Source: Microbacterium sp. MYb72
Lineage (GTDB): Bacteria; Actinomycetota; Actinomycetes; Actinomycetales; Microbacteriaceae
Length of the DNA: 64,000 bases
Direction of reading: 5' to 3'
NCBI RefSeq assembly: GCF_002979415.1
Contig: NZ_PCOT01000002.1
Location: 1 to 64,000 of the forward strand
Shown here: positions 5,213-7,515 of the stretch, piece after piece
How the letters are laid out: every line of letters begins with the position of its first letter
How positions within the stretch are numbered: position 1 is the stretch's first letter
The notes under the pieces: generated by a model
Database searches by the model: none
Seen by the model: the letters and a program-made list of their open reading frames with translations, nothing else
What the model was told of the DNA's origin: nothing
Made by a program: the position numbers and the translations under genes

Positions 5213-5458
5213 TCAGTGCGCGCTCGCCTGCACCTCGCGGAGACGCGCGAACACCTGATCGCGCAGCTCCTCCGGAGCGGTCTCCTTGCAGGCACGGGCC
5301 ACGACCTCGGTGAGCGTGGTCGCGACCAGAGCCTCATCGCGGCACGACGGGCAGTTCTCGAGATGCTCGCGGATCTCGGTGTGCTCGGTCTTGCACACCT
5401 CGTTGCGGAGGTACTCCTCCAGATCCTGACGGGCCTTGTCGCAGCCGCAGTCGCTCAT
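5213..5458 (-). CDS. rsrA: Zinc-binding anti-sigma factor of RsrA type
   Basis: Redox-sensing anti-sigma factor, 81 aa, predicted to hold the SigR-type sigma factor inactive until thiol oxidation releases zinc. Zinc ligands by family comparison are Cys6, His32, Cys36 and Cys39 (HLENCPSC); the Cys6-to-His32 spacing of 26 equals that in Streptomyces RsrA. Extra cysteines at 4 and 22 could take part in disulfides. The start overlaps the sigma gene stop by ATGA, the standard sigR-rsrA coupling. Together with peroxiredoxin and aroA nearby this matches the actinobacterial SigR/SigH locus. Confidence 0.93.
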
Positions 5459-6117
5459 TTCCTGCTCCTCGTGTCAGCCGCGGCGATGCCCCGCTCTGCG
5501 GCGTAGTCGGCCAACAGCTCCCGCAGCATCCGCCTGCCACGGTGCAGACGGCTCATCACGGTGCCGATGGGGGTCTTCATGATGTCGGCGATCTCCTGGT
5601 AGGCGAATCCCTCGACGTCGGCGAGGTAGACGGCCAGCCTGAAGTCCTCCGGCACCGCCTGCAGCGCGTCCTTGACGACGGATGCCGGCATGCGGTCGAT
5701 CGCCTCGGCCTCCGCCGACCGGCTGTGCGACGCCGTGGTCGACTCCGCGCCGCCCAGCTGCCAGTCCTCGAGCTCGTCGATCGTGCCCTGGAACGGCTCG
5801 CGCTGCTTCTTGCGGTAGATGTTGATGTACGTGTTCGTGAGGATGCGATAGAGCCACGCCTTGAGGTTCGTGCCCTGCGAGAAGGTCGCCCACGAGCCGT
5901 ACGCCTTCACGAAGGTCTCCTGCACCAGGTCGGCGGCGTCGGCGGGATTGCGGGTCATGCGCATGGCGGCGGCGTAGAGCTGATCCATGAAGGGGATCGC
6001 CTGCTCCTCGAACTCGCGCCGAGGGTCGCTGACCGTGCCTGCGGTTGCGGTGTCATCCATCACGGGCCAGTCTAGGCCGCTGAGGTCGACGAACTCGCGC
6101 TCAAGCGTTGCGAGCAT
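5455..6117 (-). CDS. sigR: Thiol-stress ECF sigma factor SigR/SigH
   Basis: ECF sigma factor, 220 aa from the chosen start. Region 2 ([17 protein letters not shown]...[15 protein letters not shown]) and the helix-turn-helix of region 4 ([17 protein letters not shown]) are intact. The ATG at 6117 is chosen because AAGGAGAGAGG lies just upstream. An in-frame ATG at 6165 would add 16 residues and lacks a good ribosome site; in Streptomyces a longer, unstable SigR isoform is made from such an upstream start. An exact SigR-type promoter lies at 6185-6210, so the gene is probably self-activated. Expected targets are thiol-redox and proteolysis genes. Confidence 0.94.
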
Positions 6118-6184
6118 CCTCTCTCCTTCTCCCCGAATGCGGCCCCCGTTCGGTCGGGCGCACATCGGTGTTCACTAAAGTGGG

Positions 6185-6210
6185 AACCGATGAGCGCCAA
6201 CAGGTATTCC
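6185..6210 (-). promoter_or_regulatory. SigR-dependent autoregulatory promoter
   Basis: On the minus strand GGAAT (6210-6206), 18 bases, then GTT (6187-6185). This equals the SigR/SigH consensus GGAAT-N18-GTT. The -35 element lies inside codons 6-7 of the divergent aroA gene. Transcription would begin near 6178, before the upstream in-frame ATG at 6165. Confidence 0.82.
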
Positions 6211-7515
6211 CCTCCCCTCGTCCAGGGCTCTTACGCCGCGCCCGCCATCGACGGCTCCGTGCACGCCACGGTGACCATTCCCGGCTCGAAGTCGCTGACG
6301 AACCGCGAGCTGATCATCGCCGCGATCGCCGACGGTCCAGGACGTCTGATCGCCCCGCTGCACTCCGACGACTCCCGCCGCATGGTCGAGGCGCTGCGCG
6401 CACTGGGCGTCGGCATCGAAGAGGAGGACACGGGCGGCGAGTTCGGCCCCGACCTCGTCGTGACCCCCGCGAAGCTCACCGGCGGCTCCACCATCGACTG
6501 CGGCCAGGCCGGCACCGTGATGCGCTTCATCGCCCCGCTCGCCGGCCTCGCCCAGCACGACGTGCACCTCACGGCCCACGAGACGGCTCTGCACCGCCCC
6601 ATGGGCGGACTCATCAGCGCACTGCGCGATCTCGGCGTCGACATCGACGACGAGGGCACCTGGGCGCTGCCCTTCACGATCCGCGGCCACGGGCGCATCC
6701 GCGGCGGCCGGGTCGAGATCGACGCCTCCGCGTCGAGCCAGTTCGTCTCGGGCCTCCTGCTCGCCGCCCCCCGTTTCGACGTCGGCCTGCACCTGGTCCA
6801 CACCGGCACGCACCTGCCGAGCCTTCCGCACATCGACATGACGATCGAGGCGCTGAGCCGCCGCGGCATCCGCATCGAGCGACCGGCCACCGGCGAATGG
6901 CTCGTGGAGGCCGGGGTGCCCCGCGCCAAGGAGATCGCGATCGAGCCGGATCTCTCCAACGCCGCGCCCTTTCTCGCCGCCGCCCTCGTCACGGGCGGAT
7001 CCGTCTCCGTCACCGGCTGGCCGGTGCACTCGACGCAGCCGGGCCACCTGCTGCCCGAGATCCTCCAGGCGATGGGCGCCCACGTCGGCCGGCACAGCGG
7101 CACGCTGACGGTGCGCGCGGGCTCCGGCATCCGCGGCCTCGATCTCGACCTGTCGGCGGCGAGCGAGCTCACCCCGACTCTCGTCGGACTCGCCGCATTC
7201 GCGGACTCCCCCACGACGATCCGCGGCATCGGTCACATCCGCCTTCACGAGACCGATCGGATCGCCGCCCTGATCGGGAACGTCCGTGCTCTCGGCGGTC
7301 AGGCCGAAGAACTGCCCGACGGGCTGCGCATCATCCCGAGCGCCCTGCACGGCGGCGTCTGGGCCGCGCATCACGACCACCGCATGGCGACGACCGGAGC
7401 GCTCATCGGACTCCGGGTGCCCGGAGTCGAGATCGACGACATCGGCACGACGGCCAAGACGCTCCCCGAGTTCACCGTGCTGTGGGAGCGGATGCTGCGG
7501 GGCGACTCCGCGTGA
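6190..7515 (+). CDS. aroA: 3-phosphoshikimate 1-carboxyvinyltransferase (EPSP synthase)
   Basis: Sixth step of the shikimate pathway: joins phosphoenolpyruvate to shikimate 3-phosphate. 441 aa, normal length. The substrate-binding PGSKSLTNRE (from about residue 31), the GQAGTVMRF loop and the late HDHRMA motif are all present, so the enzyme looks active. The ATG at 6190 follows GTGGGAA. The gene diverges from sigR, and its first codons carry the sigR promoter. Its stop overlaps the GTG of rsgA, so the two are coupled. The aroA-rsgA pair next to sigR/sigH recurs in actinobacteria. Confidence 0.96.
   Translation: MSANRYSPPLVQGSYAAPAIDGSVHATVTIPGSKSLTNRELIIAAIADGPGRLIAPLHSDDSRRMVEALRALGVGIEEEDTGGEFGPDLVVTPAKLTGGSTIDCGQAGTVMRFIAPLAGLAQHDVHLTAHETALHRPMGGLISALRDLGVDIDDEGTWALPFTIRGHGRIRGGRVEIDASASSQFVSGLLLAAPRFDVGLHLVHTGTHLPSLPHIDMTIEALSRRGIRIERPATGEWLVEAGVPRAKEIAIEPDLSNAAPFLAAALVTGGSVSVTGWPVHSTQPGHLLPEILQAMGAHVGRHSGTLTVRAGSGIRGLDLDLSAASELTPTLVGLAAFADSPTTIRGIGHIRLHETDRIAALIGNVRALGGQAEELPDGLRIIPSALHGGVWAAHHDHRMATTGALIGLRVPGVEIDDIGTTAKTLPEFTVLWERMLRGDSA

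Follow-up and report, generated by a model that had tools for sequence, protein, structure and literature searches.

A probable two-promoter, two-start layout of the sigR gene in Microbacterium

Known systems and the Microbacterium sigR locus

In Streptomyces, SigR is described as being made in two forms: promoter p1 gives a stable short SigR, and the SigR-dependent promoter p2 gives a long SigR' that is removed by Clp proteases (PMC5472188, PMC4921905). The short form is reported to start at a GTC codon behind AGGAGGTG and to be repressed by IF3 (PMC5472188). In Mycobacterium tuberculosis, the optimal SigH consensus is given as GGAAYR-N17/18-GTT (PMC4921905, PMC4803200), and in M. smegmatis a second promoter provides 155 of the 1,099 leaderless genes with an additional, leadered mRNA, with no -35 consensus (PMC6448022).

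We analysed a stretch of 64,000 nucleotides, called the window below; the nearest relatives found were Microbacterium. The short form of sigR (5455..6060, minus strand, 201 aa) matches profile TIGR02947; when the profile was run on the reading frame opened at 6165 the product scored 300.6 bits against a cut-off of 251.55, and it is the sole match above the cut-off in its genome. Directly downstream on the same strand is a gene for an rsrA-like zinc anti-sigma factor (5213..5458), whose start overlaps the sigR stop as ATGA. Its product contains HLENCPSC, which was read against HxxxCxxC, a pattern that we take to be the RsrA motif. The score of this protein, 60.5 bits, is just below the TIGR03988 cut-off of 62.5, and automatic annotation may therefore miss the gene. 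Divergently from sigR lies aroA (6190..7515, plus strand), predicted to encode an EPSP synthase (TIGR01356, 362.7 bits, cut-off 287.25).

Following these analyses, we consider it probable that sigR has two promoters and two in-frame starts giving a long and a short SigR. The sequences show that both promoters and both starts are conserved and that the extension is under selection; that the promoters fire, that both proteins exist, how stable each is and that a feedback operates is inferred. SigR itself would fire p2 (6185-6210) to produce a leadered mRNA, and translation of this mRNA from the Shine-Dalgarno-preceded ATG 6117 would give a long SigR with 19 extra residues. The housekeeping-type promoter p1, inside the sequence coding for the extension, would start transcription at or just before ATG 6060, and its leaderless or near-leaderless mRNA would give a short SigR that lacks the extension. 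If Streptomyces is taken as the model, this short SigR would be a steady pool bound by the RsrA-like protein, thiol oxidation would release SigR to fire p2 and the long form would act as an amplifier, until the extension, often starting with L-[ED]-R, marked it for proteolysis and the response ended.

This order of p2, upstream in-frame long start, p1 and short start is also that of Streptomyces coelicolor sigR-rsrA (PMC5472188, PMC4921905), where p1 is independent of SigR and the start of the anti-sigma gene overlaps the sigR stop in the same way (ATGA). However, the extension is 55-58 residues long in Streptomyces and 19 here. The Streptomyces-specific GTC start behind AGGAGGTG (PMC5472188) is absent from this locus, which has instead an ATG 8 nt after the -10 and no ribosome site; consequently our claim is that the locus works like the Streptomyces system, not that it belongs to the Streptomyces variant. 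M. tuberculosis sigH is similar in having a downstream p1 and an upstream SigH-dependent p2 (PMC4921905, PMC4803200). Corynebacterium glutamicum sigH-rshA shares the housekeeping-type promoters, several of them there, with -10 hexamers TAGAAT, TAAAGT and TAGAGT, but the mapped sigH starts are 22-131 nt upstream of the start codon, none being leaderless, and rshA has an additional promoter of its own, unlike here (PMC3489674). The genes of M. smegmatis with dual mRNAs differ in that two protein lengths with one self-controlled promoter are not described in the extracts of that report (PMC6448022). The literature searches brought up no title on SigR isoforms in Microbacteriaceae; the wider occurrence of the layout may in part have been published before.

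For comparison we used a genus set of 81 loci: the window, and 80 loci from Microbacterium that were the best-ranking ones among 556 confirmed relatives. The 80 loci were scanned with six peptide patterns; DWPVMDDT, one of the six, overlaps p1, and this set is therefore biased towards p1. The Microbacteriaceae family set was found by profile and is thus without the bias of that pattern; among 147 genomes with a match, 110 loci were taken (the 30 best scores and 80 for genus cover) and 37 were left out. Family loci were anchored by tblastn for the spacing counts. The order set comprises the 30 best-scoring loci from 119 genomes searched, all outside Microbacteriaceae, the class set the 28 best-scoring loci from 118 genomes searched, and 40 further loci were hand-picked for family cover. 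Three loci from the window's own genome (L081-L083, the window's sigR and two other sigma-like genes) were excluded from every count. Locus L078 comes from a record whose title, Planococcus sp. APC 4015, is that of a Firmicute, yet its sigR is of the Microbacterium type and has the two promoters; the record is probably mislabelled.

The upstream promoter and its overlap with aroA

The SigR-type promoter p2 had been proposed in a preliminary description as an exact GGAAT-N18-GTT on the minus strand, and it is indeed there, with the -35 GGAAT at 6210-6206 and the -10 GTT at 6187-6185; the predicted transcript start is near 6178. The same description placed the promoter inside aroA. This is correct for the -35, the complement of which (ATTCC, 6206-6210) falls in aroA codons 6-7 (TAT TCC), but the -10 is outside the gene, 2 bp before its ATG.

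The motif alone is weak evidence. Exact GGAAT-N18/19-GTT occurs once in the whole window, where 0.56 are expected and 44 of 100 shuffles had at least one, and the 3.94-Mb genome contains 46 exact motifs of this type against about 34 from the scaled window rate. A reversed-pattern control gave 0 genome-wide, although its string TTG...TAAGG differs in make-up and is a poor yardstick in a GC-rich genome. With occurrence near chance in both window and genome, the exact motif was rejected as sufficient proof of a promoter. Elsewhere in the genome (G000:C66:77418-77447) two exact SigR motifs are found on opposite strands with a 4-base offset, within a palindrome, possibly a divergent pair of SigR promoters or an operator.

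We accept p2 as real because of its conservation across loci. Every one of the 81 Microbacterium loci carries it ahead of sigR, with N18 in 61 and N19 in 20, while spacers of 8-17 and 20-29 nt each occurred in at most one of the 81. Among 105 non-Microbacterium loci of the family having the p1/short-start unit, 102 had p2 (spacers N17 in 21, N18 in 79 and N19 in 3, versus no more than 7 for each control length of 8-16 and 20-29 nt, the maximum being at N25). This conservation indicates that p2 is a genuine, conserved stress promoter as judged by sequence, and supports the autoregulatory role that had been claimed for it.

A -10-like TAAAGT for aroA (6176..6181, plus strand) lies 8 nt before aroA ATG 6190 and faces p2, so that between 6176 and 6210 the aroA and sigR p2 promoters are opposed and overlapping, with the aroA ATG within the p2 spacer. 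Where both parts were readable, the p2 footprint contained an in-frame aroA start codon in 75 of the 80 Microbacterium loci and in 96 of the 103 loci from the rest of the family. With few exceptions this codon was an ATG at a distance of 4-6 nt from the p2 -10, and a TANNNT preceded it by 7-9 nt (75 loci and at least 94 loci, respectively). In the 61 loci with N18, taken one per genus, the aroA ATG, read as C, A and T, stood at fixed spacer positions in 59, 57 and 58. None of the 15 outer loci had an aroA start inside the p2 footprint. Given this head-on overlap, firing of p2 would be expected to disturb aroA. If the layout works as proposed, the opposed pair of promoters also hints at a connection between oxidative stress and the shikimate pathway.

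The putative internal promoter and the two proposed starts

Reading the relatives codon by codon, we noticed CTA/GTA-GAC-TGG...ATG near the N-terminus of the frame opened at 6117, and from this a putative internal promoter, p1, was recognised. Its -10 TAGACT is at 6069..6074 on the minus strand, 8 nt before the putative short-isoform start ATG (6058..6060, 201 aa), which has no Shine-Dalgarno site; alternatively, the short form could begin at the adjoining GTG at 6063. All 81 Microbacterium loci carry this unit of -10, N8 and ATG in frame, 80 with TAGACT and one with TAGAAT. We then scanned for in-frame TANNNT-Nk-ATG with k from 0 to 21, the spacing not being preset. The spacing k=8 was found in 81/81 genus, 104/110 family, 30/30 order and 15/28 class loci (the latter two being best-scoring loci), and every other k in at most 3 genus, 4 family, 0 order and 1 class loci. 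The family count of 104 was obtained with 260 nt upstream and rose to 106 of 110 with 300 nt. The four remaining family loci differ among themselves: L124 has the same unit with GTG, L170 has TAGTCT 7 nt before an in-frame ATG, and in L098 and L157 no unit of p1 -10 and in-frame start was found within 300 nt upstream.

In a profile aligned on the ATG (77 family loci, one per genus), the -10 and the start region carry most of the information and positions -60 to -15 little, and no conserved -35 was found for p1. The -10 is mostly TAG[AG][CA]T, in which the search pattern dictates T, A and the final T. Perhaps p1 is itself regulated, for example by a WblC/WhiB7-type activator, the short form being an antibiotic-induced rather than a constitutive pool; this would be compatible with the two-form reading and follows the example of S. 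coelicolor, in which sigRp1 is described as WblC-dependent and induced by WblC (PMC4921905). Unlike there, no WblC/WhiB7-like AT-rich tract was found conserved in these 77 loci within the 46 nt upstream of the p1 -10, and we regard such regulation as unlikely.

The spacing of p1 to its start can be compared with other leaderless-looking genes. In the window's own genome, TANNNT stood 6 nt from candidate starts in 34 cases, 7 nt in 9 and 8 nt in 2, all other spacings having 0-6 (candidate starts of 253 open reading frames in 400 kb, window excluded). In 427 open reading frames from 20 genomes of 18 families the corresponding numbers were 30, 20 and 8, with 0-6 elsewhere. In this genome, starts of the leaderless kind seem to form a genuine class. 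Since their norm is 6-7 nt, the strict 8 nt of sigR is a kept departure, and the p1 mRNA probably has a leader of 1-2 nt, its translation being uncertain. A purine directly precedes the short ATG in 71 of 77 family loci and in 42 of 45 outer loci, and for this reason a transcription start at -1, giving a one-nucleotide leader, is the simplest guess. The 5-nt rule for leaderless mRNA (PMC6448022) would apply to the p1 mRNA if it starts at -1 or -2. ATG 6060 is the likely, nearly leaderless start of the short form.

Because another conserved promoter, together with ATG 6060 as a further start, lies downstream of it in the same frame, ATG 6117 (6115..6117, minus strand) is better read as the long start. 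It is preceded by the Shine-Dalgarno sequence AAGGAG (6128-6123), opens a SigR'-like form of 220 aa and is likely the start used on the p2 transcript; the preliminary description had taken it for the short-form start. The extension it would add has 19 codons (6061..6117). For each of the frames 0, +1 and +2 we counted the loci in which a Shine-Dalgarno-like start lies beyond the p2 transcript start and its frame stays open into p1. These numbered 80, 5 and 5 in the 81 Microbacterium loci; 63, 6 and 4 in 75 family loci taken one per genus; 18, 0 and 0 in the 30 order loci; and 10, 0 and 0 in 15 loci of the class set. Among 44 Microbacterium loci whose extension is 57 nt long (43 different sequences), amino-acid-changing relative to silent differences, counted per site, gave a ratio of 0.37 in frame versus 1.19 and 2.13 out of frame. 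This ratio shows selection on the predicted extension at the protein level.

The extension begins with MLATLER in the window, and in other genera with MATALLERPR, MSSAVLERPS, MPTSVLERPS and similar peptides. L-[ED]-R was present within residues 2-13 in 52 of 80 Microbacterium extensions and in 22 of 64 family extensions (one per genus), compared with means of 1.8 and 0.8 for shuffled peptides, a control that leaves shared ancestry uncorrected. It was also present in 5 of 10 class-level extensions and in none of 18 order-level ones. The family peptides are encoded by 14 different 9-mers, and [VTLIAM]L[ED]R was found near 5 Shine-Dalgarno starts, sigR being one of these, out of the 1,325 present in the window and the sample of its genome together. 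The peptide is a candidate degron. A degron common to Streptomyces was considered and rejected, as the Streptomyces-like extensions inspected do not begin with L[ED]R and none of the 18 order-level ones has it.

These data bear directly on the possibility that a single protein is made from 6060, both promoters feeding the short start and the upstream frame being an inconsequential translated lead-in. Such a scheme would agree with p1 and ATG 6060 being the most conserved parts of the region, and with the Shine-Dalgarno long start missing in some families. It is hard to reconcile with a frame 0 open far above the other frames, with the ratio of 0.37 and with a recurrent N-terminal peptide made from varied codons; moreover, the extension is fused in frame to SigR and its translation must yield a long protein. 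We judge this scheme quite improbable.

Alternatively, a single protein could start at 6117, where there is a good ribosome site and none at ATG 6060, and TAGACT-N8-ATG would be a conserved peptide or a chance coding feature. The codons argue otherwise. Across the 77 loci (one per genus) the p1 -10 spans 28 different tripeptides on one invariant DNA frame, and in Microbacterium its TA is held in CTA (59), GTA (21) or TTA (1 of 81), while NTA codons make up 0.05% of the sigR core and CTA is used for 0 of 1,159 leucine codons. The 28 tripeptides and the rare NTA codons indicate that the DNA is kept and not the protein, and the 8-nt spacing is fixed while the flanking lengths vary. This alternative is therefore very improbable.

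The preliminary description had instead placed the long-isoform start at a further ATG (6163..6165, minus strand). This ATG is present and in frame, 48 nt ahead of ATG 6117 (reading frame 5455-6165), 9 nt past an in-frame TGA. It has no Shine-Dalgarno site, and that description itself had noted the lack of a good ribosome site. An ATG at this position is shared by only 3 of 81 loci (the window, L002 and L026), and of the 16 of 80 Microbacterium loci with any in-frame upstream ATG, 13 have it at other positions. The comparison with relatives for frame-breaking changes, which the description had suggested, revealed that in 31 of 80 loci (omitting L004, where the Shine-Dalgarno start is undetectable) a stop interrupts this frame on the way from the predicted p2 transcript start to the Shine-Dalgarno start; ATG 6165 fails by this yardstick, which is the description's own. 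The leader 20-50 nt upstream of the long ATG has an entropy of about 1.7 bits, equal at all three codon positions as in an untranslated leader (44 loci, computed ungapped, so that indels inflate the value). It is hence scarcely credible that translation of the p2 transcript begins at ATG 6165 and yields a 236-aa SigR', with 6117 as the short constitutive start, even though this ATG keeps the frame and follows the predicted p2 start by about 13 nt. The two-isoform layout that had been proposed is nevertheless what the conserved sequence layout predicts; its long start at ATG 6165 is unlikely.

Occurrence in other actinobacterial families

Outside Microbacteriaceae, the N8-ATG unit was found in 65 of 98 loci, representing 28 of 47 other families. 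In 19 of the 47 it was absent, and four of these (f4, f23, f29 and f33) show N8-GTG. In family f4, two SigR homologues (L305 and L306) scored below the TIGR02947 cut-off and showed no p2, one of them carrying TAGAAT-N8-GTG. The unit was missing in all three loci of family f22, perhaps the mycobacterial family; if this guess is right, M. tuberculosis differs from Microbacterium in this respect.

No Shine-Dalgarno long start was found in some families that have kept both promoters (f9, 0/5; f15, 0/3; f19, 0/3; f43, 0/3), and this speaks against universality of the long form. Individual loci with both promoters and no Shine-Dalgarno long start were L201, L206, L207, L211-L213, L216, L217, L219, L220, L223, L227, L232 and L251. 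The long form in these loci may be lost or differently started.

If the two-form reading is true, the SigR/SigR' loop would be a layout of many actinobacterial families and not a speciality of Streptomyces, and the near-leaderless short start would be its common form. The expected start of sigR in these genomes would move, and two starts 57 nt apart provide an exact and cheap test. The short recurrent peptide of the extension would offer a degron candidate.

A broader reading, possible although doubtful, joins a near-leaderless SigR throttle across much of the actinobacteria with an N-terminal degron and a thiol-stress shut-off of aroA. The stress-made long form would carry a new degron of the form x-L-[ED]-R-(P), and in Microbacteriaceae the overlap of p2 with the aroA promoter would let thiol stress shut off aroA. 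IF3 disfavours leaderless mRNAs. As a throttle, a leader of one or two nucleotides (often 5'-G-AUG) would initiate poorly because IF3 discriminates against it. The connection to IF3 is drawn from this property together with the GTC start as described in PMC5472188. The throttle would then be the general form of a brake that Streptomyces replaced by its IF3-repressed GTC start.

In the Streptomyces-like family f37, with genomes of about 8-10 Mb, all 6 of 6 loci have AGGAGGTGGGTC and no N8 unit. As AGGAGGTGGGTC corresponds to the GTC start region of Streptomyces (PMC5472188), the method recovers the known exception. Two loci of family f39 also have strings similar to AGGAGGTGGGTC.
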